The notes below the pieces were generated by a model. The model ran no database searches. It was not told the origin of the DNA and saw only the letters and a list, made by a program, of their open reading frames with translations. A stretch of DNA of 37,030 nt, from positions 1 through 37,030 of the forward strand of contig JAKAHJ010000004.1 of assembly GCA_021815055.1 (NCBI GenBank). The letters are read 5' to 3'. This document shows positions 5,795 to 35,567 of the stretch, piece by piece. A program made the translations under genes and the position numbers. The number at the start of each line of letters is the position of its first letter. The first letter of the stretch is position 1. This stretch comes from Pseudomonadota bacterium (GTDB lineage: Bacteria > Pseudomonadota > Alphaproteobacteria > Rhizobiales > Xanthobacteraceae).

Positions 5795-6681
5795 GCGCTG
5801 AACTCCTTTTCGAGAGCGGCGGCGAGGATGCCGTCGAGCGCTATGGCATTGGTCGGATGCGGCACGCTCGACGTGGAACGGATCGAGCCGATACCGGCGC
5901 GTTTGAAATCGGCGATCATTTCGGGCGCGAACAAGGCATGCGTGATCACCGCATCGACCGTGCGCGCGCCGGCGGCGGCGAGCGCCCTGGCGCAGGCGAT
6001 CAGCGTCCCGCCGGAGGAGACGATGTCGTCGACGAGCAGTACCGGGCGGTCTTTGAACAGCGAGGGATCGGGAAAGGCGATCTCGACCGAGCGATCGCCG
6101 GCCCTGGTCTTGCGCGCGACCGCGGCGGCGAGCGACAGCCGGCCGGCGAGGTCGCTCACCCAGGCTTGCGATTCCTCGTCAGGGCCGACGACGACGGTTT
6201 CGCGTGCAATGCCGCGCAATGCATCCGCAATGGCGGGCATCGCCGACAGATCTTGCGCCTCGATGCCGGGGAACACGTCTTCGATGCGCTTCGTGCGATG
6301 CAGATGCGCGTCGACGGTGACGACGCGGTCGACGGTACGCGCGAGCAGCGCCCCGATGACCTTTTGGTTGATCGCTTCGCCAGTATGGAAGGCCGCATCC
6401 TGCCGCATGTAGCAGAGATAGGGCGCGACCAGCACCAGGCGCCTGGCGCCGCCGCGCCGCAGCGCTTCGGCCGCGAACAGGAGCACGAGCAGTTTGTCGT
6501 TCGGCCGGTCGAGCGGAAAATAGAGGATGACGGTGGGGACGGCTTCGCCGACGGTGACGCGCAATTCGCCGTCGGGAAAACGATGCACGTCGATGTCGCG
6601 CAGCGGCACACCGAGCCGCGCCGCCAGCCGCGCGGCGTCATCCGCGCCGGACGCCAAGCATTGCAGGTTGACGCCGCTCAT
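5791..6681 (-). CDS. Ribose-phosphate pyrophosphokinase-like protein (PRPP synthetase family)
   Basis: Starts at ATG 6681 ([24 protein letters not shown]); [30 protein letters not shown] loop [14 protein letters not shown]. The listed 1120-aa ORF is this gene plus out-of-frame upstream sequence. Confidence 0.92.
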
Positions 6682-8222
6682 GGCCGGTTCTCGCTGCCCG
6701 GCACAGGCGTCCTGATGACGTAGCCGTTGTCGGCCTTGGCCGCGGCCTGCGCGAGTTCGAACTCCGGCTGGTCGAAAGCGTAGATGCGATAGAGCGGCTC
6801 GCCTTTCTCCACCGGATCGCCGATCTTCTTGAACAGCTTGATGCCGGCGCCCTTGTCGATCGGCGCGCCGGCAGTGCGTGCGAGCCGGTTGAAGCGCAGG
6901 CAGTCGATCGCTTCGACCATGCCGTCGCGCGGCGCCGTCACGTCGGCAGTCAAGGTGCCGAGGTCGGTGCGCACGCCGGAGGGGCCCTGCGCGTCGATGA
7001 TCTTCTGCATTTGTTTCAGCGCGGCGCCGCTGTCGAGCAGTTCCCGCGCCCGCGCATAGCCCTTGCCGCCGCGCAACTCGGGATCGTAATCCAGGAGATG
7101 GGCGGCGAGCCGCAGCGATTTCTCGCGCAGGTCGACCGGTGCGCTGGGATCGTTCGACAGCACCGCCATAACGTCCTGCGCCTCCAGCACCGGGCCGATG
7201 CCGTTGCCGATCGGCTGGCTGCCGTCGGTCGCGATCGCCTCGACCGCGATGCCGAAGTGATCGCCGACAAATTCGAACAGCTTGCGCAGCCGCATCGCCT
7301 CCAGCGCGGTGGTGAGCTTGGCCGAGGGGCCGACGGGCAGGTCGATCAAGAGATGGGTGGATCCGGCCGCGAGCTTCTTCGACATGATCGAGGCGACCAT
7401 CTGCTCGCGGGTATCGAGGCTGAGCGGGCGCTCGACCGAGATCAGAATGTCGTCGGCCGGCGACAGGTTCACATGCCCGCCCCAGACCAGGCAGCCGTGG
7501 CAGGCGGCGACGATTTCCTTCATCTGCTCGACGCCGACATCGACGCGCGCCAGCACCTCCATGGTGTCGGCGGTGCCGGCGGGCGAGGTGATCGCGCGCG
7601 AGGAAGTTTTCGGAATGGTCAGCCCGTGCGCCGCGACGATCGGCACCACGACCATCGAGGTGCGATTGCCGGGAATGCCGCCGATGCAGTGCTTGTCCAC
7701 CACCATCGACCGCTGCCATTTGATCTGCGTGCCGGCATCGGCCATCGCCTTCGACAACGCGAGCAGTTCGCTCGAGGTCATGAAGCTGGCCGAGCCGATC
7801 AGGAAGGCGGCGACTTCCATATCGGAATAGCGGTAGTGCGAAATGTCGTCGATAATGGCGGCGATCTCGGGGGCGGAGAACGAACGGCCCTGGATCTTGC
7901 GGCGGACGAATTCGAGACTCTCGGGCGAGGCTGCCGGCGTGACCGAGACGAGCGTACCGACCGGCTCGCCGAAACGGCGGAAGGCGGGATCGGCGAGACC
8001 CAACTCGTCGACCTCGACCATGCCATCGTCGGTGAGCAGCAGAGTCGCAAGCAGGGCCTTGCCGTTCGAGCGCAGCTCGACGCGGCTGAAGCCGCGAAAC
8101 ACGTCCGGCCGCAGCGCGACCGAACGGCGCGAGATCACGACCACGTTTTCGCGGCCGGTATCGAGATTGACGCGCCGGACTTTCAGGCGCGGACGCAGAT
8201 TGTTGTTGGCTTTCATCCCCAC
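6678..8222 (-). CDS. Thymidine phosphorylase family protein, archaeal AMP-phosphorylase type
   Basis: 514 aa; [44 protein letters not shown], extra N-terminal domain characteristic of AMP phosphorylase-like members. Confidence 0.9.
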
Positions 8223-25066: not shown

Positions 25067-26299
25067 CTATCCGCGCAGCCGGGCGAGCGAGGCGTCGCCG
25101 GTAAAGACGCTCTCGAAATGCGCCAGCGTGCCCTTCGAGCGCTGCCGGGCCGTGTCGTTGCGCGGCGGTTGCCAGGACGTGCCGGGCAGGTGCTGGGTTG
25201 CCTGGTACCACTCGGCCGGGCTCGCACCGATCGCGCGCGCGAAATCGCCGGCCTGCGGCGACTTGGCGATCAGGCCGAGCCAGAGGATCATGAAGTCCTG
25301 CGCCGACTGCTTCGGGGTCCGCGTTGCCGCGATATGGGCGGCTGTCGCGCGCGCCACACGCTCGCGCAAGGGCGGAGACACGAGCAGCATATCCAAGAGC
25401 GATGCCGCCTCCTCGATCGAGCGTGCAACGAATCCGGTCTCGCCGTCGCGTATGATGGCGCGCTCCGCCGCGTTGTCGAGCACGACCGGGACGAGGCCGA
25501 GCGACATCGCCTCGATGAGCGCATTCTCGGCGGTGCCGTAATGATCGCGCTGCAGCGGATAGAAAAAAATATCGGCTTCGGATAGCGCGCGCGCCGGCTC
25601 CGCGGTCTGTCCGCGAAACACGATGCGCTCGGGATGATGCATGGCGCGGGCGCGCGCCGCTACCTCGCCCGATGGCTCGAGCGCGCCCCAGACCGGCACG
25701 CGAATGTCCGCGCCGGCGAGCCGGTCGATGGCATCGAAAAATCCGGGATGCATTTTCACGAAGTCGACCGTGCCGAGATAGGCGATCGCCGGCTTGGCGC
25801 GGCGCATGCGCAGCGGCAGGCCGGCGGCATCGAACCCGAATCCGCTGTTGACGACGGCGGTGCGCGCACGCGCTTCCTCGGACACGTGCGCCAGCGACGG
25901 GTTGGCGCGCGAGGCGTCGCTGGTGAAGACGAAGCGCATCGCCTGCTCGATCAAGCCGGGCGGGATGAAAGGCTTGCCGAGCCCCGAGACATGCGACCAG
26001 AACACGCTGCGCATCGGCGGGAACGGGCAGCGCGCGAGGCATTCGAACAGGCGCGGGTGATTCCAGTATTCGAATTGCACGATGTCGGCCTTGTGCGCGA
26101 GCCGCATCACGTAATCGAGGCTGTCAGCGACGACCACGCGCGCGCCGCCGCGCATCAGCGCATCGGCATAGCGCCGGTCGCGCGGCGCTTCCAGCAGCGC
26201 GAAGGTTTGTTCGATTTCGGGAGGCAGCGCGCTGCGCAGTGCCGCATGCGCCTTGCCGACGCCGCCGCCGAGATGCGGCGTAATGTGCAGGATGTTCAT
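25067..26299 (-). CDS. Glycosyltransferase (GT4-like)
   Basis: MNILHITPHLGGGVGKAHAAL N-terminus; FRGQTAEPARALSEADIFFYPLQRDHYGTAENALIEAMSLGLVPVV donor-binding region. Confidence 0.88.
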   Translation of the reverse strand: MNILHITPHLGGGVGKAHAALRSALPPEIEQTFALLEAPRDRRYADALMRGGARVVVADSLDYVMRLAHKADIVQFEYWNHPRLFECLARCPFPPMRSVFWSHVSGLGKPFIPPGLIEQAMRFVFTSDASRANPSLAHVSEEARARTAVVNSGFGFDAAGLPLRMRRAKPAIAYLGTVDFVKMHPGFFDAIDRLAGADIRVPVWGALEPSGEVAARARAMHHPERIVFRGQTAEPARALSEADIFFYPLQRDHYGTAENALIEAMSLGLVPVVLDNAAERAIIRDGETGFVARSIEEAASLLDMLLVSPPLRERVARATAAHIAATRTPKQSAQDFMILWLGLIAKSPQAGDFARAIGASPAEWYQATQHLPGTSWQPPRNDTARQRSKGTLAHFESVFTGDASLARLRG

Positions 26300-27444
26300 T
26301 CCGCCGCGATGGCCGTGAAGGTCCGGCTGCTGCCGCCGGGCGGATCGAGATCGGGATCGACCGCGACGGCTTTTTTGAATTTCTCGAGCAGCATCGGGCG
26401 ATGGGCGTCGATATTGTCGGGCAGGCAATGGCTGAGCTGGCCGCAATTGCCGCAGACGCCGTTCTGCCGGCGGCGGCCCTCGAGATGCTGGAGGCGGAGC
26501 GCGTTCATGCGCTCGGACGTCCATATCTCCTTCATCGATTGCTGGCGCACGTCGCCGATTATCAGCTTGCGGCCCCAATCCAGGAAGCAGGACGAGATGA
26601 GGCCGTCCGCATTCACCGAATAGCCGTAGAAGATGTAGGGGCAGGTGTCGGTATCGCCGACGTCCTGCTGATAGATGCCCTGGCTGATGGTGACGCCGGT
26701 GTGTTCGGCGATGTCGAATTCCGGCCAGCAGGGCGCGAAATTTTCGACGAAGATGCGGTCGCAGTGATCGCCGAACGTGTCGAAGAATTTCTGCCGCTCG
26801 GCCTCGGTGATCAGTTCGCCGGGGATTTTCACGGCGACTTCGCAATTGCCCCTGTTGGCATAGAGCCAGCGCACATTCTCGACGAATTTCTCGAAGTCGA
26901 ATTTGAAGCCGGTGAAGCGCAGGTAGGTTTCCTGGCTCATGCCGTCGACCGAGATGTTGATCTTGTCGATGCCGGCTTCGAGCACGGGGCCGAGGCGTTC
27001 GGGCGTAATGAGCGTGCCGTTGGTGGTGGTGTCGATATAATCGATATGACCGGAGCGCTTGGCATAGCCGACCATGTCGGCGAAGCGCTTGTTGAGGAAC
27101 GGCTCGCCGTCCTTGTACAGGCGCAGCACCTTGATCGGCTTGTCGAAGGCGCCGAGGTCGTCGACGATCTTCTGGAACAGCTCGTATTTCATCGCGCCCT
27201 GGAAGCGACCGGTCTCCGCGATCAGGTCGCGGTGGCCGGTCGGGCAGAAGGTGCATTTGAAATTGCAGGAACTCGCCGGGTCGACGAACACGATGAAGGG
27301 CGTCGCCAGCGGGATCACGGTTTCGAGCGGCGTGCGCCCTTCGAGATTGATTCGCGGCTGCAACCGGGCTTTCACGCAGCTTTTCCTTGGGAAGGAGGCG
27401 TCCGTTAAAATACGTAAAGAATTTAAGCGGTATTGGTTAACCAA
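26296..27444 (-). CDS. Radical SAM/SPASM domain protein (copy 1)
   Basis: SSCNFKCTFCPTGHRD (CxxxCxxC), NGTLITPERL, SVDGMSQETY; SPASM-type Cys in CPYIFYGYSVNADGLISSCFLDW and CGNCGQLSHC. Start may be GTG 27375 by alignment with copy 2. Confidence 0.9.
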   Translation of the reverse strand: MVNQYRLNSLRILTDASFPRKSCVKARLQPRINLEGRTPLETVIPLATPFIVFVDPASSCNFKCTFCPTGHRDLIAETGRFQGAMKYELFQKIVDDLGAFDKPIKVLRLYKDGEPFLNKRFADMVGYAKRSGHIDYIDTTTNGTLITPERLGPVLEAGIDKINISVDGMSQETYLRFTGFKFDFEKFVENVRWLYANRGNCEVAVKIPGELITEAERQKFFDTFGDHCDRIFVENFAPCWPEFDIAEHTGVTISQGIYQQDVGDTDTCPYIFYGYSVNADGLISSCFLDWGRKLIIGDVRQQSMKEIWTSERMNALRLQHLEGRRRQNGVCGNCGQLSHCLPDNIDAHRPMLLEKFKKAVAVDPDLDPPGGSSRTFTAIAAE

Positions 27445-27590
27445 GTCTTTGCGGCGAAGGATTCAGGTCCGTCATCGCAAGAGGCCCTGAAAAACCGACG
27501 GCCTGCCTTCGCTCGCTATGAGAGCTTCGGCGAATTTTCAGCCCGCCGAAGCGCAGAGCGCGCCGGCGGGTCAATGTGATCGGATTGACC

Positions 27591-27782
27591 CTAATCCCAC
27601 CCGCCCGGCACGCGGCCGGCCGGATTGGTCACGCGCCCGTCGGCGCGCTTGGCCTTGGCCAGCGCCGGGATCGCCTCGCGCAGCGGAATTGCCGGATTGG
27701 GCCAGTGGATAAGCAGAAGGTCGACATAATCGACGCCGAGCGCAGCGAGGCTCTGGTCGACCGAACGCGCGAAGTCGGCCGA
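27591..27782 (-). pseudogene. Aldo/keto reductase remnant
   Basis: Reverse-strand frame ending at stop 27591-27593 reads SADFARSVDQSLAALGVDYVDLLLIHWPNPAIPLREAIPALAKAKRADGRVTNPAGRVPGGWD*, an internal AKR segment lacking N- and C-terminal regions, with an in-frame stop at 27783-27785. Confidence 0.75.
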
Positions 27783-27831
27783 TCACATGCGATCATTGGT
27801 TACAACGACCATCCGATTCTTTATTGTGTTT

Positions 27832-27849
27832 GTTGTCAAATATGACTAC
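27832..27849. promoter_or_regulatory. Predicted operator palindrome upstream of toxin-antitoxin operon
   Basis: GTTGTCA-AATA-TGACTAC inverted repeat (6/7 matching arms), 13 bp before the toxin ATG at 27863. Confidence 0.45.
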
Positions 27850-27862
27850 ATAGGGAGCGTGG

Positions 27863-28210
27863 ATGACCCGCAACACGCGGAAGATCAATTGGGTAAAGGC
27901 GGCTCTGAAGGATTATTTGGAGCTTCCGAAAGAGGCCCAAGATCGCGCTGCCACGGCACTCACCTATGTCGCCGAGGGTGCCACGCCCGATATAGCAAAG
28001 CCGCTGACTGGTCTTGGAAGCGGCATTTGGGAGTTGGCGATCAAATCGCGAGGCGATGCGTACCGGGTCGTTTACGCACTCCAACTGGGAGAGGATATCT
28101 GGATCGTTCACGCGTTCCAGAAGAAATCCAAGAAGGGTATCGCTACGCCGAAGCACGAAATCGACCTGGTGCGCGAACGCATCAAACGGCTAAGGGAACA
28201 ACTGCGATGA
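27863..28210 (+). CDS. RelE/HigB-like toxin (phage-derived Gp49-like family)
   Basis: 115 aa; GSGIWELAIKSRGDAYRVVYALQLGEDIWIVHAFQKKSKKGIATPKHEIDLVRERIKRL. Confidence 0.9.
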   Translation: MTRNTRKINWVKAALKDYLELPKEAQDRAATALTYVAEGATPDIAKPLTGLGSGIWELAIKSRGDAYRVVYALQLGEDIWIVHAFQKKSKKGIATPKHEIDLVRERIKRLREQLR

Positions 28211-28539
28211 AAGCTCGTAAACTCAGGACCGTCAGAGGCAGCGGTAATGTCTTTCGCGACCTTGGTCGTGAGAATGCCGAGGCCTTGCAGCTCAAGGCGC
28301 TGCTTGCGGTTGAAATTGTCCGGGCGCTCGATGACGGCAACCTCACCGTTCGCACGGCCGAAAATCTGACGGGCATTGCTGCGGCCGACTTTTCGCGCAT
28401 CCGCAACGCCAATCTCGACCGCTTCACAGTTGATCGGCTGATGGCGATCCTCGACCGCTTGGGCCGGGACGTGGACGTTGCAATTACGGTGCGGCAACGC
28501 AAGCGCTCGGCCGATCAACGCGCGCACGTCGTTGCATAA
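28207..28539 (+). CDS. XRE/HigA-like antitoxin
   Basis: MKARKLRTVRGSGNVFRDLGRENAEALQLKALLAVEIVRALDDGNLTVRTAENLTGIAAADFSRIRNANLDRFTVDRLMAILDRLGRDVDVAI; ATGA overlap with the toxin stop. Confidence 0.88.
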   Translation: MKARKLRTVRGSGNVFRDLGRENAEALQLKALLAVEIVRALDDGNLTVRTAENLTGIAAADFSRIRNANLDRFTVDRLMAILDRLGRDVDVAITVRQRKRSADQRAHVVA

Positions 28540-28785
28540 ACGGCGTGAACGTTGCCTTGCGCGCGGTCTATCAGCGGCTCGAAAATTTACTTGTTTCCGG
28601 TGATTACCGGAGATCGCCGGACATTATCTAAGTATTTTATTTTTATAAAAATTCATATTTTACTTGATCTGTTCACGGAGCGATGGCCTCACGGTACCGC
28701 CTTCGAAACGGGCTGGGAAATGATGGGGAAGGCTATCCGGAGCGAATCAACCAAATGAGCGGTGCCGCTAACGTCTTGAGAAATA

Positions 28786-28862
28786 TGGCGCGCCCGAGAC
28801 GATTCGAACGTCCGACCTTTGCCTTCGGAGGGCAACGCTCTATCCAGCTGAGCTACGGGCGC
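28786..28862 (-). tRNA. tRNA-Arg (anticodon CCG), CCA encoded
   Basis: Reverse strand GCGCCCGTAGCTCAGCTGGATAGAGCGTTGCCCTCCGAAGGCAAAGGTCGGACGTTCGAATCGTCTCGGGCGCGCCA: 7-bp acceptor GCGCCCG/CGGGCGC, anticodon loop CTCCGAA, T-arm GTTCGAATC. Confidence 0.95.
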
Positions 28863-29203
28863 CTGACGCCCTAGATAGACGAAACCGCCGGGGGCGGCAA
28901 CGGGCGGCGTGCGGCGGAACGCGTCCGGCGCGTCCGGCAATCTGTGCCCCGGCGCCGACGGCAAAGAGACCGCAAAACAAATCGTGGAGCGGACGCGAAG
29001 CGGCCGCCCGTGCCGGAAAAATTTTCCACGGTCGCAACCGGCCGGCCGTCTATCGGCCGCCGCCGGCCGGGGCGCTCCGGCGCCACCCGTTATGGTTAAC
29101 CCGACCTTAATCATGCCCGGCTAAAGGATACCGTCGGGCCGCGCCATCCCCGCTCTTCATCGGCCCGGCCGGCATTCGCTGGGTTTCATAAACGAGGACG
29201 CCA

Positions 29204-30223
29204 ATGAAGGCGAAGTACCGCAGCCGGCTGGCCGACAAGAGATGCGATCTCGGACAGGCGGCGCCGCTCGGGACGCCGTTCGTGCTCATCGTCGACCCGG
29301 CGAGCCACTGCAATTTCAAGTGCCGCTTTTGCCCGACCGGCGATCTCGATCTCATTGAAACCACCGGCCGTTACCAAGGGCCGATGGCGTTCGATACGTT
29401 CAAGAAGATCATCGACGACCTGCAAGAATTTTCCGAGCCCGTCAAAGTCCTGCGTCTCTACAAGGAAGGCGAGCCCTTGATGAACAAGCGCTTCGCCGAG
29501 ATGGTTCGCTATGCCCGGTCGAGCGACAAGATCGAGCGGATCGACACCACGACGAACGGCGTTCTGCTGACGCCCAAGACAAGCGAAAAGGTCATCGCTG
29601 CGGGAATCGACCAGATCAACATTTCCGTCAACGGGCTCCGGAACGAGCAATTCGCCGAACTGGTGCAGACGAAGGTCAATTTCGAAAGATATGTCGAGAA
29701 TATCAAGTATCTTTGCAGCATCAAAGGCGACTGCGAAATCTACGTGAAGGCGATCGAGGAAAATCTCTCCGAAGACGACCGCAAGCGGTTCCTCGATATC
29801 TTCGGCGATGTCGCCGACCGCGTTTTTTTCGAGCACCTTTTTCCCAACTGGCCGGGGTTCGAAAGCGATATCATTCCGATGGAATGCTCCGTCGGTCTTT
29901 ACGGCGACGAGGTCCTGGAGAGATCGGTTTGTCCATACATCTTCTATAGTACTACCATCAATTCCGACGGTTCCGTCAGCCTATGCGTGCAGGACTGGGC
30001 GAGGAAACTCGTGGTCGGCTCCGTTGCCGAAGAGTCGGTGCGCGATATCTGGTTAGGGCGGCGTCTCGACGCGCATCGCCTGTCGCACCTGAATGGGCGA
30101 CGCAAGAGCGATCCGACCTGCGCGCAATGCCAGTGCATGTCGCTCGGCGTTTTCGACAACATCGATAGCCGGGCCGGAGAAATAAAGGAACGGTTGTCTT
30201 CGGCAAATCATTACCGCAGGTAG
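29204..30223 (+). CDS. Radical SAM/SPASM domain protein (copy 2)
   Basis: SHCNFKCRFCPTGDLD, VLRLYKEGEPLMNKRFAEMVRYAR, SVCPYIFYSTTINSDGSVSLCVQDW, CAQCQCMSLG; extended similarity to copy 1. Confidence 0.92.
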   Translation: MKAKYRSRLADKRCDLGQAAPLGTPFVLIVDPASHCNFKCRFCPTGDLDLIETTGRYQGPMAFDTFKKIIDDLQEFSEPVKVLRLYKEGEPLMNKRFAEMVRYARSSDKIERIDTTTNGVLLTPKTSEKVIAAGIDQINISVNGLRNEQFAELVQTKVNFERYVENIKYLCSIKGDCEIYVKAIEENLSEDDRKRFLDIFGDVADRVFFEHLFPNWPGFESDIIPMECSVGLYGDEVLERSVCPYIFYSTTINSDGSVSLCVQDWARKLVVGSVAEESVRDIWLGRRLDAHRLSHLNGRRKSDPTCAQCQCMSLGVFDNIDSRAGEIKERLSSANHYRR

Positions 30224-30228
30224 GTGTC

Positions 30229-31227
30229 GTGCGCGTTCTGATCGTCGGCGGGACGGGAAACATCAGTTGGCGGCTGTCTCGCGCCGCGGTCGATGCCGGC
30301 TGGCGGGTCACGCTTTTGAATAGAGGCACACCCGATCGCAGGCGGCGGCCGGCGCCGCACGGATGCGACGTCATTATTTCCGACGTCAACAATCAGGCGT
30401 TGACCGAGGAAGCCCTCGGAAACCGGTCCTTCGACGCGGTCGTCGATTTCGTCTGCTATAACGAACAGCACGCGCGGCGCGCAGTTTCCTATTTCCGCCA
30501 ACGCACCCGTCACTATGTTTTCATCAGCACGACGGCCTTGTACGACCGCGAGCGGGCAAAGCCGCCTTTCACCGAGGATTCCGCGATCGTCGACAGCGGT
30601 TGGGACTATGCGCTGGCGAAGGCGCGCGCCGAGGGGGTCTTCAAGGAGGCCGCCGCGCGTGAGGGTTTCCCGGTCACCATCCTGCGCCCGGGGCACACTT
30701 ACGACACGATTATTCCGGAGGCGGTGGGCGACGGGAACTGGACCAATCCCTGGCGGGCGTTGAACGGTAAGCCGATCGTGCTGCATGGCGACGGCACCAC
30801 GCTGTGGACGGTGACGCATTCGTCCGATTTCGTGCGCGCGGTCATGGAATTTCTGCAGTCCGGCCATGCGCCAGGCGAGACCTTCCACATCACCACGGAC
30901 GAGACGTACAACTGGCGGGAGATCACCGCCATAGTCTGCCGTGAGATTGGTGCGAGCGCGCCGCAGCTCTGCTATCGCACCACGGAAGAGATCGATCGCG
31001 TCACCACGCGCTACGGCAACGGCATCAAGTGGCACAAGATGTGGTGCGACATCTACGACAACAGCAAGTTCAAGGCGGCCTGCCCGTCCTGGCGCGCGCG
31101 GGTGCCGTTGCAGGACGGCATCAAAAATGCCGTTGGCTACTATCGCAGCGACGCCAGCCTGATGATCCCCAATGAGCACCTCAACGGCATCCTCGATGCC
31201 ATCTGCGAACTGCGCGCCGTGCAGTAA
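30229..31227 (+). CDS. NAD-dependent epimerase/dehydratase (extended SDR)
   Basis: MRVLIVGGTGNISWRLSRAAVDAGW; HYVFISTTALYDRE; DYALAKARAE; LRPGHTYD. GTG start. Confidence 0.87.
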   Translation: MRVLIVGGTGNISWRLSRAAVDAGWRVTLLNRGTPDRRRRPAPHGCDVIISDVNNQALTEEALGNRSFDAVVDFVCYNEQHARRAVSYFRQRTRHYVFISTTALYDRERAKPPFTEDSAIVDSGWDYALAKARAEGVFKEAAAREGFPVTILRPGHTYDTIIPEAVGDGNWTNPWRALNGKPIVLHGDGTTLWTVTHSSDFVRAVMEFLQSGHAPGETFHITTDETYNWREITAIVCREIGASAPQLCYRTTEEIDRVTTRYGNGIKWHKMWCDIYDNSKFKAACPSWRARVPLQDGIKNAVGYYRSDASLMIPNEHLNGILDAICELRAVQ

Positions 31228-31250: not shown

Positions 31251-32339
31251 ATGCAACTCACCATATTACTGGCGACCAATCGGAGCGGCTTGGCGGCGAG
31301 CGCGCGCGTGGCGCAGGCCTGTTCCTGGGCCTCGCCCGATATCGAAGTCATCGTGCGCGACAATTCCGGCAATGGCGAGAAGCGCGAGCTGCTCGCGCGC
31401 ATGCGAAGCGAGCATTGCAATATCATCCTGGCGGAACCGTGCGATGGGCTGACCAACCTGTCCGAGATCCTGCGTCTGGCGCAAGGCGAATTCATCTTCC
31501 TGATCGCCGACGACGATCTGTTCTTCGATCATGCGATGGCGGCGCTGCCGCCCGCGCTCGAACGGATCGCGAAGGACCCGGCAGTGGTCGGCATTACCGG
31601 GGGCTATCTGGTCGAATCCGGACAGTTCGGTTCGACCATCATGGCCTACCAGAATGTTGAAGACGACGATTTGACCGCGCGCGTGGCCGGCTATCTTGCC
31701 AATGGCGGCCCGAACATCCTGCATTATGCGCCGGTGCGGCGCGATATCGTGCAAGGCACGTTCGCGTTCATGAACACGCTGCCTTTCTATTTCTCCTTCC
31801 ACGACCAGGTCGTTTCGCTGCTCTATCTGCTCAACGGCAGGTTCGTGCGGCTCAACCGGCTGCTCTATGGTTACGATCTCGGCATCTGGCAGTCGGCGGA
31901 AACCGCGCAGAAGCGGGATCTCGATTACTACCGGGAGGCGGGGCTCGATCCCGCCATCAACAAGCTGCATTGGTTCCTGTGCGGCTTCGAAGGCGCTGTT
32001 CTGGCCCGCAATGCCGATGTGTTCCCCGACCGTCCTCTGCCGCAGCGGCAAGGCATTGCCGACCGCTGGTTTTCAGCGATGTTCCATCGCTTCCGGAGTC
32101 AGGCGCGGCTGGCCGGCAATTCGCGATATTCCGGCGAGGCGGACAGACTATGCACGAAACTGCAGGCGCCGGCGGCGCAATTGTCGTTCCAGAACATGCT
32201 GGCGGAAATTTGCGGCTTGATCGCGCTGTCTTCGCCGGACCATGCGCAGCGCTATAACGCATTCTGGTCGGCGGCGATCGCGGCGCGCGTGCCGGCGCGG
32301 CGGTTTGCGGCTGCTACAGCCGAACCCCGGGTAGCCTGA
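31251..32339 (+). CDS. Glycosyltransferase family 2-like protein
   Basis: MQLTILLATNRSG...IEVIVRDNSGNGEKRELL...LRLAQGEFIFLIADDDLFFDHAM (DXD-like). Confidence 0.8.
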   Translation: MQLTILLATNRSGLAASARVAQACSWASPDIEVIVRDNSGNGEKRELLARMRSEHCNIILAEPCDGLTNLSEILRLAQGEFIFLIADDDLFFDHAMAALPPALERIAKDPAVVGITGGYLVESGQFGSTIMAYQNVEDDDLTARVAGYLANGGPNILHYAPVRRDIVQGTFAFMNTLPFYFSFHDQVVSLLYLLNGRFVRLNRLLYGYDLGIWQSAETAQKRDLDYYREAGLDPAINKLHWFLCGFEGAVLARNADVFPDRPLPQRQGIADRWFSAMFHRFRSQARLAGNSRYSGEADRLCTKLQAPAAQLSFQNMLAEICGLIALSSPDHAQRYNAFWSAAIAARVPARRFAAATAEPRVA

Positions 32340-32349
32340 GGCGCTTGGT

Positions 32350-33120
32350 ATGAAGGTCGTCATCCTCGCGGGCGGGCTCGGCACTCGGATCTCCGAGGAA
32401 AGCAATCTGCGGCCGAAGCCGATGATCGAGATCGGCGGCAAGCCCATCCTCTGGCACATCATGAAGATCTATTCGGCGCACGGCGCCAACGACTTCGTGA
32501 TCTGCTGCGGCTACAAGGGCTACGTGATCAAGGAATATTTCGCGAATTATTTCCTGCACATGTCGGACGTGACGTTCGACATGGCCAAGAACAGCATGGT
32601 CGTGCATCAGCAGAAGGTCGAGCCCTGGCGCGTGACGCTGGTCGACACCGGCGAGCAGACGCAGACCGGCGGCCGGCTGAAGCGCATCGCCCCCCACATC
32701 AGGAACGAAGAGCTGTTCTGCTTCACCTATGGCGACGGTCTCTCGGACGCGAATATCGGCGCGGCCGTGAATTTCCATCGCAGCCACGGCAAGCTCGCGA
32801 CGGTGACCGCGGTGCATCCGCCCGGCCGCTACGGCGCGCTCGATCGTGTCGGCGACCAGGTCGCCCGTTTCACCGAAAAGCCGCGCGGCGACGGCGGCAT
32901 GATCAATGGCGGCTTCTTCGTACTGTCGCCGCGCTGTCTCGACTTCATCGACGGCGACGACAGCAGTTGGGAAGGCGCGCCGATCGTCCGGCTCGCCTCT
33001 TCCGGACAGATGATGGCCTTCGAACATCGCGGGTTCTGGCAGGCGATGGATACGCTGCGCGACAAGACCATGCTGGAAGAAATGTGGGCATCCGGCAGGG
33101 CGCCATGGAAAATCTGGTAG
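32350..33120 (+). CDS. rfbF: Glucose-1-phosphate cytidylyltransferase
   Basis: MKVVILAGGLGTRISEESNLRPKPMIEIGGKPILWHIMKIYSAHGANDFVICCGYKGYVIKEYFANYFLH. Confidence 0.96.
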   Translation: MKVVILAGGLGTRISEESNLRPKPMIEIGGKPILWHIMKIYSAHGANDFVICCGYKGYVIKEYFANYFLHMSDVTFDMAKNSMVVHQQKVEPWRVTLVDTGEQTQTGGRLKRIAPHIRNEELFCFTYGDGLSDANIGAAVNFHRSHGKLATVTAVHPPGRYGALDRVGDQVARFTEKPRGDGGMINGGFFVLSPRCLDFIDGDDSSWEGAPIVRLASSGQMMAFEHRGFWQAMDTLRDKTMLEEMWASGRAPWKIW

Positions 33121-34223
33121 CGGGCGCAGCCGATGCCGCGTTCTGGCGCGGCAAGCGCGTGCTCGTCACCGGGCACAGCGGTTTCAAGGGGTCATGGATG
33201 ACGCTGTGGCTCAATCGCCTGAGCGCAAATGTCACCGGCATCAGCCTGCCGCCTGCGAGTGCGCCGAATCTTTTCACGGAAGCGCATATCGAGACGCTCT
33301 GCCAAAGCCATTTCTGCGACATCCGCGATAACGAGGCGCTTGCCGGGCTGGTTCGCGGCGCGCAGCCGGAAATCGCGTTCCACCTGGCGGCGCAGCCGCT
33401 GGTGCGCGCGAGCTATCGGGAGCCGCGCGCGACCTTCGCCGCCAATGTGATGGGCACGGTCAATGTACTTGATGCGCTGCGCGGGCTTGCGGGCGTGCGC
33501 GTTGCGGTGATGGTGACCACCGACAAAGTCTATCGCGCCGATGCGCGCCAGCCTTATGCCGAAGACGATGCGCTGGGCGGTCACGATCCCTACAGCGCCA
33601 GCAAGGCAGCCTGCGAAATGGCGATCGCGAGCTATCGCGAGTCCTTCCTGGCGGCGCAGGGCGTGGCGGTGGCGAGCGCGCGCGCCGGCAATGTGATCGG
33701 CGGCGGCGACTGGTCGGAGGATCGCCTCATCCCCGATGCGGTGCGCGCCTGGCGGGCCGGACGTCCGCTCGACATCCGCCGCCCGCAGGCGGTGCGGCCC
33801 TGGCAGCACGTACTCGAACCGCTGTTCGGTTATCTGATCCTGGCGCAGCTTCTGTGGCAGCAGCGCGCGCCTGCGGGCGCCTATAATTTCGGTCCAAACA
33901 GCGGCGATGCGGCAAGCGTGCGCGATGTGATCGAGCTCGCGCGCCGCGCCTACGGGCACGGCGAGGTGCATTACGGCAACGGGTGCGAAGGTCCGCACGA
34001 GGCGGCCTGGCTCGCGCTCGACGCCGGCAAGGCGCGTGCTGTGCTCGGGATTGCGCCGCGGTTCAGTTTGCCGCAGGCGATCGAACGCACGATGACCTGG
34101 TATCGTGCCCATCGTGAGGGGGCGGATGCGCGGGGCTTGTGCGAGGCCGACATCGCCGCATTCGAGGCTTTGGCGGCGAGCGGAAATCCCGCGCCGGTGA
34201 GGCCGGCGATTGCGGTCGCCTGA
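33105..34223 (+). CDS. rfbG: CDP-glucose 4,6-dehydratase
   Basis: FWRGKRVLVTGHSGFKGSWMTLWL, FHLAAQPLVRASYREPRATFAANVMGTVNVLDA, TTDKVYRADARQPYAEDDALGGHDPYSASKAACEM. Start overlaps rfbF end. Confidence 0.95.
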   Translation: MENLVAGAADAAFWRGKRVLVTGHSGFKGSWMTLWLNRLSANVTGISLPPASAPNLFTEAHIETLCQSHFCDIRDNEALAGLVRGAQPEIAFHLAAQPLVRASYREPRATFAANVMGTVNVLDALRGLAGVRVAVMVTTDKVYRADARQPYAEDDALGGHDPYSASKAACEMAIASYRESFLAAQGVAVASARAGNVIGGGDWSEDRLIPDAVRAWRAGRPLDIRRPQAVRPWQHVLEPLFGYLILAQLLWQQRAPAGAYNFGPNSGDAASVRDVIELARRAYGHGEVHYGNGCEGPHEAAWLALDAGKARAVLGIAPRFSLPQAIERTMTWYRAHREGADARGLCEADIAAFEALAASGNPAPVRPAIAVA

Positions 34224-34224
34224 G

Positions 34225-34755
34225 ATGCGCTTCGAACCGACACCGCTAGCCGGGGCTTTTCTCATCCATCTCGAACCGCGCATGGATACGCGCGGTCTGT
34301 TCGCGCGCGCCTTCTGCGCGCAGGAATTCGGCGCGCAGGGGCTGGAAACGGTCTTCGTGCAGGCCAATATCAGCACCAATTCACATGCCGGCACCGTGCG
34401 CGGCATGCATTTCCAGCGCGCGCCGCATGCCGAGGTGAAGCTCGTGCGCTGCATCAAAGGTGCCGTCTACGACGTGATCGTCGACATGCGCGAGGGCTCG
34501 CCGAGCTATCGGTGCTGGTTCGGCGCCGAATTGTCGGAGGGCAACGGCGCCGCGATGTATGTGCCGAAGGGCTTCGCGCACGGCTATCAGGCGCTCAGCG
34601 ACGGCGCCGCGGTGTTCTATTTGGTGAGCGCCTCCTACGCGCCGCAGGCGGAAAGCGGCGTGCGCCATGACGACCCCGCGCTGTCGATCGCGTGGCCGCG
34701 TGCCGCGGCCGATATCTCGCCGAAGGACGCCGCATGGCCGCTGATCGTCCTTTGA
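34225..34755 (+). CDS. dTDP-4-dehydrorhamnose 3,5-epimerase-like (RmlC family) sugar epimerase
   Basis: RMDTRGLFARAFCAQEF, NISTNSHAGTVRGMHFQRAPHAEVKLVRCIKGAVYDVIVDMR, VPKGFAHGYQALSD. Confidence 0.92.
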   Translation: MRFEPTPLAGAFLIHLEPRMDTRGLFARAFCAQEFGAQGLETVFVQANISTNSHAGTVRGMHFQRAPHAEVKLVRCIKGAVYDVIVDMREGSPSYRCWFGAELSEGNGAAMYVPKGFAHGYQALSDGAAVFYLVSASYAPQAESGVRHDDPALSIAWPRAAADISPKDAAWPLIVL

Positions 34756-35567
34756 TCCTGCTCACCGGATCCACCGGCTTTGTCGGCCGCCAGGTGCTGC
34801 GCACGCTGGCCGAGCGAGGCTGCCGCCTGCGCGTCGTCGTGCGGCCCGGCCGGCAAAGCGCGATCGCATCGTCGGACACGATCGACGAAATCGCCACGGC
34901 GGATCTGTGGTCGCAAAGCGCGGATGGCTATGCTGCGCTGTGCCGCGATATCGACACGGTGATTCACGTCGCCTGGTACGCCGAGCCTGGGCAATATCTG
35001 CAATCGCCGAAGAACCTCGATTGCTTGATGGGCACCCTGCGTTTCGCGCAAGCCGCGGCCGCGGCCAAAGTCCGGCGCTTCGTCGGCATCGGCACGTGCT
35101 TCGAATACGACTTCGCGCCCGGCTATCTGAAGATCGATACGCCGCTGCGGCCTTCGACGCCCTATGCCGCGGCCAAGGCCGCCGCTTTTCTCGCGCTGTC
35201 GCAATATTTGCCGCAGCAAGGGGTCGAATTTGCCTGGTGCCGTCTGTTCTATCTCTACGGCGAAGGCGAGGACGAGCGCCGCCTGGTGCCGCAACTGCGT
35301 TCCAAGCTCGCGGCCGGCGAGCCGGTCGAGCTGACCAGCGGCAAGCAGATCCGCGATTATCTCGATGTGCGCGAGGCGGGGCGCATGATCGCGGAATGCG
35401 CGCTCGGGCGCGCGCGCCGCGCGGTGAATATCTGCTCGGGCACGCCGGTCACGGTGCGCGAACTGGCGGAGCGCATCGCCGACGAATATGGCCGCCGCGA
35501 CCTGCTGCGCTTCGGCGCGCGTCCGGACAATCTGGTCGATCCGCCCTGTGTGGTAGGGGTGCGGTAG
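34734..35567 (+). CDS. NAD(P)-dependent SDR oxidoreductase (probable nucleotide-sugar 4-ketoreductase/epimerase)
   Basis: LILLTGSTGFVGRQVLRTL; GIGTCFEYDF; STPYAAAKAAAFLAL; ICSGTPVTVRELAERIADE. Start overlaps the upstream epimerase by 22 bp. Confidence 0.87.
   Translation: MAADRPLILLTGSTGFVGRQVLRTLAERGCRLRVVVRPGRQSAIASSDTIDEIATADLWSQSADGYAALCRDIDTVIHVAWYAEPGQYLQSPKNLDCLMGTLRFAQAAAAAKVRRFVGIGTCFEYDFAPGYLKIDTPLRPSTPYAAAKAAAFLALSQYLPQQGVEFAWCRLFYLYGEGEDERRLVPQLRSKLAAGEPVELTSGKQIRDYLDVREAGRMIAECALGRARRAVNICSGTPVTVRELAERIADEYGRRDLLRFGARPDNLVDPPCVVGVR

Follow-up and report, generated by a model that had tools for sequence, protein, structure and literature searches.

Two Twitch-type radical SAM enzymes distinguished by one cysteine in a bacterial glycan locus

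The window analyzed here, a stretch of 37,030 nucleotides from a Xanthobacteraceae bacterium (GenBank assembly GCA_021815055.1, contig JAKAHJ010000004.1), is one whole contig of an assembly that is 69% complete, and carries a glycan locus with two paralogous radical S-adenosylmethionine (SAM) enzymes, rSAM1 and rSAM2. The two proteins combine a radical SAM core with a four-cysteine auxiliary domain assigned to the Twitch type and differ at an additional cysteine, C216, which is found in rSAM1 only. The rSAM1 gene is coupled to a gene for a GT4 glycosyltransferase, and the rSAM2 gene is followed by a gene for a short-chain dehydrogenase/reductase (SDR), SDR1. By analogy to the cysteine of NeoN, YydG and HygY, it is tentatively proposed that rSAM1 functions as a glycan epimerase together with GT4 and rSAM2 as a dehydrogenase together with SDR1. 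The four genes are the following:

25067..26299, minus strand: GT4 glycosyltransferase (Pfam PF13692/PF00534), translationally coupled to rSAM1 (ATGA); adjoins an rSAM1-type gene in relatives
26296..27375, minus strand: rSAM1, predicted Twitch-type radical SAM enzyme (from domains and alignment; AlphaFold2 model, mean pLDDT 89.1), with core cysteines C37/C41/C44, auxiliary cysteines C245/C263/C308/C311 and the extra C216, numbered from GTG 27375
29204..30223, plus strand: rSAM2, predicted Twitch-type radical SAM enzyme without C216, N taking its place (AlphaFold2 model, mean pLDDT 91.6)
30229..31227, plus strand: SDR1, extended SDR (PF01370) and partner of rSAM2, an adjacency kept in Magnetococcales

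A Twitch-type family

Both proteins match the Pfam families Radical_SAM (PF04055) and SPASM-type domain (PF13186) above cut-off, and their alignment over 336 amino acids (E = 8e-118) has 46% identical and 67% similar positions. An earlier note on this DNA had described them as a paralogous pair with shared sequence blocks, a description that the alignment bears out, and both open reading frames are found where it had placed them. The TTG at 27444, the outer end of the range that it gave for rSAM1, is probably to be replaced as the start by the GTG at 27375, because relatives start at the corresponding M-KA. Its label of radical SAM/SPASM proteins holds for the radical SAM part, with PF04055 above cut-off, and not for the SPASM part, as the auxiliary domain has the four cysteines of a Twitch domain. 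Exactly seven cysteines are invariant among 54 family members, three in the CX3CX2C motif and four in the C-terminal domain, and the same census is obtained in 36-member alignments. As only these four C-terminal cysteines are invariant, one auxiliary cluster is predicted, in the pattern of BtrN, where four cysteines ligate the auxiliary cluster (PMC9012708). A full SPASM enzyme with the seven-cysteine motif and two auxiliary clusters is ruled out by the census (n=54) despite the PF13186 match.

BtrN is the best match of the family profile (6e-34) and the best structural match of the AlphaFold2 models of both enzymes (4e-14 and 5e-14; TM 0.75-0.80 by target), aligning across the core and auxiliary stretches with the auxiliary-site cysteines included. 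The lists of structural matches also contain the thymidine diphosphate (TDP)-sugar enzyme DesII, the cytosylglucuronate decarboxylase BlsE and the Twitch dehydrogenase SpeY. Because the peptide maturases SuiB, ChlB and SkfB and the protein MoaA share the same lists, the ranking is a lead and not proof. Matches to prokaryotic viperin are weak, partial and confined to the core (8e-11 and 1.5e-9), and this candidate was rejected.

The C216 position and the partner genes

In the predicted secondary structure, C216 of rSAM1 lies five residues past the last barrel strand. Every genus copy has this cysteine, as do the other rSAM1-type copies, the first copy of Brachyspira and the phage copies of the rSAM1 branch; at the equivalent position rSAM2 has an asparagine (N215) and its two relatives have an alanine. 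The alignment here is secure, since the motif around the residue is conserved between the three forms (FAPCWPEF, LFPNWPGF and ISPAWPGF, respectively). A copy with C216 occurs in 23 of 23 loci with the GT4 partner, and no such copy occurs in 17 of the 22 loci without GT4, the five exceptions being phage loci with other transferases. The association of C216 with GT4 in a naive Fisher test (p = 2e-8) is not used as evidence, the loci being related, and a collapsed version with hand-set counts is likewise disregarded. Second copies without C216, belonging to two clades, share loci with a C216 copy in the window, in the Magnetococcales loci L060 and L061, in L062 and on the Brachyspira plasmid (L047), and at least four changes of state at this position are counted on the tree.

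SDR1 begins 5 bp after rSAM2 and directly follows it in all three known loci. Its nucleotide-binding motif GGTGNIS and its YALAK sequence (YxxxK) are intact, and it is proposed to be the natural ketone reductase for rSAM2. More distant copies without C216, in loci L064-L066, likewise have an SDR gene directly downstream. These three loci (L064, L065 and L066) also carry HAD-like genes, and a thiamine-pyrophosphate enzyme is encoded in L064, with a similar one recognized by eye in L065; the three could represent a related pathway for branched sugars.

The genes rfbF, rfbG and rfbC are above curated cut-offs and indicate synthesis of a cytidine diphosphate (CDP)-activated 6-deoxysugar, and in the Magnetococcales loci a deoxysugar-type C-methyltransferase gene (PF08421/PF08484) adjoins rSAM2. 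Such a locus would be expected to end in a surface polysaccharide or glycolipid, for which no polymerase or dedicated exporter was identified. The earlier note's suggestion that the enzymes act on a sugar or glycan and not on a peptide gains support from the BtrN, DesII, BlsE and SpeY matches as well as from the gene spacing and model searches given below, and a sugar substrate for rSAM1 and rSAM2 is likely.

Proposed division of labor and alternatives

In the proposed scheme, the locus would build a surface polysaccharide or glycolipid with a CDP-activated 6-deoxysugar, and the two enzymes would tailor that product. The 5′-deoxyadenosyl radical of rSAM1, working with its coupled GT4, would take a hydrogen from a sugar carbon, C216 would return a hydrogen so that the center is inverted, and the auxiliary cluster would re-reduce the resulting thiyl radical. 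As rSAM2 lacks C216, its substrate radical is proposed to be oxidized to a ketone by the auxiliary cluster, and the adjacent SDR1 would then reduce this ketone. The precedent for a hydrogen-donating cysteine comes from NeoN, where Cys249 gives the hydrogen that completes epimerization (PMC10991966), and from YydG, where Cys223 does so (PMC5682303). For the Twitch epimerase HygY, the title of a 2021 paper by Besandre (cited in PMC10991966) states that mutation of one cysteine exposes dehydrogenase activity.

Several observations weigh against this division of labor. The non-ligand cysteines C178, C205 and C317 are also common in the family, C216 is carried without GT4 by the five phage loci mentioned above, and the loci entering the C216 and GT4 counts are not phylogenetically independent. 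The placement of C216 is that of a predicted secondary structure, and its likeness to the donor cysteine of NeoN, YydG and HygY is one of description, not of alignment. The pairing of rSAM2 with SDR1 comprises three loci, two of which are related metagenome-assembled genomes (MAGs), and the sugar substrate, the hydrogen-donor role of C216 and the reaction types are inferred. The generalization to the whole family is more doubtful than the assignment of the two enzymes themselves: it would have a widespread family of Twitch enzymes editing the surface polysaccharides of bacteria while these are assembled or afterwards, with a single cysteine setting a GT4-coupled epimerase apart from an SDR-coupled dehydrogenase, the two recurring as a pair in one locus, and with phages carrying the module and remodeling the surface glycans of their hosts.

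Among other readings of the pair, one has both enzymes acting as dehydrogenases like BtrN and SpeY, or else sharing some other reaction, C216 being incidental and rSAM2 a divergent copy for another position or sugar. Such a reading would fit the set of four auxiliary cysteines and the BtrN-like fold that both have in common, but wherever GT4 is present C216 has been retained, in phages as well as across phyla, it is absent from second copies, and rSAM1 is without a dedicated downstream reductase; this reading is considered unlikely. A similar standing is given to the idea of a deoxygenation by rSAM2 and SDR1 together, as with AprD4/AprD3, in which radical dehydration of a sugar diol would yield a deoxy ketone that SDR1 reduces. 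AprD4 partners the NADPH-dependent reductase AprD3 on sugar-like substrates (PMC5461906), and the adjacency of SDR1 and rSAM2 in every known locus is what such a pair would lead one to find; profile and model, however, match the dehydrogenase BtrN first, the comparison with AprD4/AprD3 being by description only.

The timing of the modification and the nature of the substrate offer further alternatives. Instead of the transferred glycan, the enzymes could modify a nucleotide sugar that is yet to be transferred, here a CDP-6-deoxysugar, in the way that DesII acts on a TDP sugar. The position of rSAM1 directly after rfbF-rfbG-rfbC-SDR2 in the genus loci and the presence of DesII among the top structural matches are in line with this, but CDP-glucose 4,6-dehydratase is above cut-off in only 2 of the 21 phage records with the family (the records being fragments), and GT4 is often still found with the rSAM1-type gene; this option is considered somewhat less probable still than the preceding two. 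Least probable by a wide margin of our own judgment is a role as peptide or protein maturases, of the ribosomally synthesized and post-translationally modified peptide (RiPP) type or for protein modification, lying by chance in glycan loci. The superfamily includes many RiPP maturases, and SuiB, ChlB and SkfB are among the structural matches, but every NCBIfam match to a RiPP maturase or known cofactor family, the memberships that the earlier note had named as arguing against a glycan role, is far under cut-off. The Pfam scan of both enzymes detected PF04055 and PF13186 only and no precursor-binding domain, the auxiliary domain has four cysteines and not seven, and in the loci of many relatives the abutting neighbors of the rSAM copies leave no room for a conserved precursor gene, consistent with the earlier note, which had seen no peptide precursor nearby. 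An epimerase with GT4 and a dehydrogenase with SDR1 are the preferred, if tentative, assignments.

Genomic history of the locus

The remaining features of the locus are as follows:

27590..27790, limits approximate, minus strand: aldo/keto reductase remnant (PF00248 positions 87-130 only)
27863..28210, plus strand: Gp49/RelE-like toxin candidate (PF05973, E 4.6e-20)
28207..28539, plus strand: HTH_37 antitoxin candidate (PF13744, E 5.3e-20)
28786..28862, minus strand: tRNA-Arg(CCG) (ARAGORN)
31251..32339, plus strand: GT2-like glycosyltransferase of the genus-level operon (PF00535 just under cut-off), kept in relatives
32350..33120, plus strand: rfbF, glucose-1-phosphate cytidylyltransferase (TIGR02623 above cut-off)
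33099..34223, plus strand: rfbG, CDP-glucose 4,6-dehydratase (TIGR02622 above cut-off)
34201..34755, plus strand: rfbC-like 3,5-epimerase (TIGR01221 above cut-off)
34671..35567, plus strand: SDR2, sugar epimerase/reductase family (PF01370), genus-conserved

The gene arrangement is as the earlier note had given it, with the GT4 start overlapping the rSAM1 stop in an ATGA, and with SDR1 and then the GT2-like gene, rfbF, rfbG, rfbC and SDR2 downstream of rSAM2. That the pair diverged around the small interval between them does not hold, as rSAM1 and rSAM2 are old paralogues. In the tree, from which the long-branched Bhyo_4, Bhyo_6 and Bhyo_7 were left out, rSAM2 groups with Magnetococcales copies (support 100/100) and rSAM1 with genus copies, and a local duplication grouping both window genes is rejected (p-AU 8.6e-7). 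The 1.8-kb interval that the two genes flank holds the aldo/keto reductase remnant, the Gp49/HTH_37 toxin-antitoxin-like pair and the tRNA-Arg gene, and the part from 27590 to 28862, between both glycan gene sets, resembles an insertion scar.

The rSAM1 gene is found in 9 of 44 genomes of the genus, at 79-84% identity to the window copy and in one case as a contig-edge fragment, and rSAM2 in no other genome among the 44. Most relatives with enough flanking sequence have the order GT2-rfbF-rfbG-rfbC-SDR2-rSAM1-GT4 on one strand, by which rSAM1 is assigned to a genus-level operon. In the window, the rSAM1-GT4 end of this operon is found on the other strand and before the remaining genes, and rSAM2-SDR1 stands directly upstream of GT2; given this altered order, rearrangement and acquisition are likely, a chimeric assembly being less so. 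Close relatives of rSAM2 (62-64%) and SDR1 (53%) are found only in two Magnetococcales MAGs, where they are adjacent too and where each locus has an rSAM1-GT4 pair in addition. In a set of 399 genomes from the phylum, SDR1 relatives above 50% occur only beside rSAM2, and the weaker ones (29-36%) have no rSAM2-like neighbor within 1.5 kb on either side. Judged from these sequence relationships, rSAM2-SDR1 is a separately acquired module.

Relatives in Brachyspira and phages

Among annotated genes, the nearest homologues found for rSAM1, GT4, SDR2 and rfbC form the block BHWA1_02678-02681, carried by the 36-kb plasmid of Brachyspira hyodysenteriae, with identities of 49%, 26%, 26% and 42%, respectively. 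La et al. reported this block in virulent strains and its absence from low-virulence strains (PMC4267127); the link to the window is one of homology, and no claim of virulence is made for the window bacterium. The plasmid (pBHWA1, L047) carries five tandem radical SAM genes of the family and two more distant ones. The first copy alone has C216 and adjoins GT4, and no SDR gene lies beside the extra copies.

A scan of IMG/VR recovered 248 contigs with relatives of the family, and in several contigs of uncultivated phages the family gene is located beside portal, tail or head-closure genes (PHROGs). The phage copies in L068, L069 and L071 have about 68% identity to rSAM1. The rSAM1-type genes in the IMG/VR loci L068, L071, L073, L075 and L076 lie amid glycosyltransferase or DUF5672 genes, and in L076 a second radical SAM protein with a B12-binding domain (6213-7799) follows the rSAM-GT4 pair. 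As a phage marker, phrog_2 proved uninformative, as it also matches 11 of 14 cellular controls. A search of the cultured phages in INPHARED with rSAM1 returned no close relative and two distant matches only. Phages with radical SAM genes have been described before: the Campylobacter phages CP220/CPt10 have 11-12 of them (PMC2853527), and pelagimyophages carry radical SAM cassettes in glycosyltransferase-rich host-recognition regions (PMC7029224).

Significance and comparison with known systems

Radical epimerization and dehydrogenation of sugars have so far been studied mainly in antibiotic pathways, and among the papers searched none joined radical SAM/SPASM enzymes, O-antigen and glycosyltransferases. 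If the proposed reactions take place on O-antigen- or capsule-type glycans, they would provide a route to sugar stereoisomers that are out of reach of nucleotide-sugar enzymes. As the paired copies differ at one cysteine, the reaction is predictable and could be tested by a single substitution. For the virulence-linked plasmid block of Brachyspira hyodysenteriae, the proposal would also supply a testable role for its radical SAM gene, which La et al. could not inactivate (PMC4267127), and the phage copies hint that radical SAM sugar chemistry may be spread by viruses.

The family is regarded as a variant of the Twitch radical SAM sugar enzymes and not as a new kind. We know of no coupling of BtrN to a GT4 or SDR partner. 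The butirosin enzyme BtrN (PDB 4m7t) resembles rSAM1 and rSAM2 in its radical SAM core and four-cysteine auxiliary domain, as the best sequence and fold match and in its sugar-like aminocyclitol substrate, but the identity in the fold alignment is 18-19% and BtrN belongs to an antibiotic pathway rather than a polysaccharide locus. In the aminoglycoside epimerases HygY and NeoN one cysteine is critical, as C216 may be in rSAM1, and HygY, going by the title of the paper on it, is also of the Twitch type; their substrates are antibiotics, and they are compared here by description, not by sequence. AprD4/AprD3 resembles rSAM2-SDR1 in the pairing of a radical SAM enzyme with a dedicated reductase, a likeness of gene pairing and not of sequence, and the reaction may differ. 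The Brachyspira block of radical SAM, glycosyltransferase, NAD epimerase and rfbC genes has homologous genes with the same locus logic and a radical SAM enzyme with C216, but differs from the window in having more tandem radical SAM copies and no rfbG annotated on the stretch that was read.

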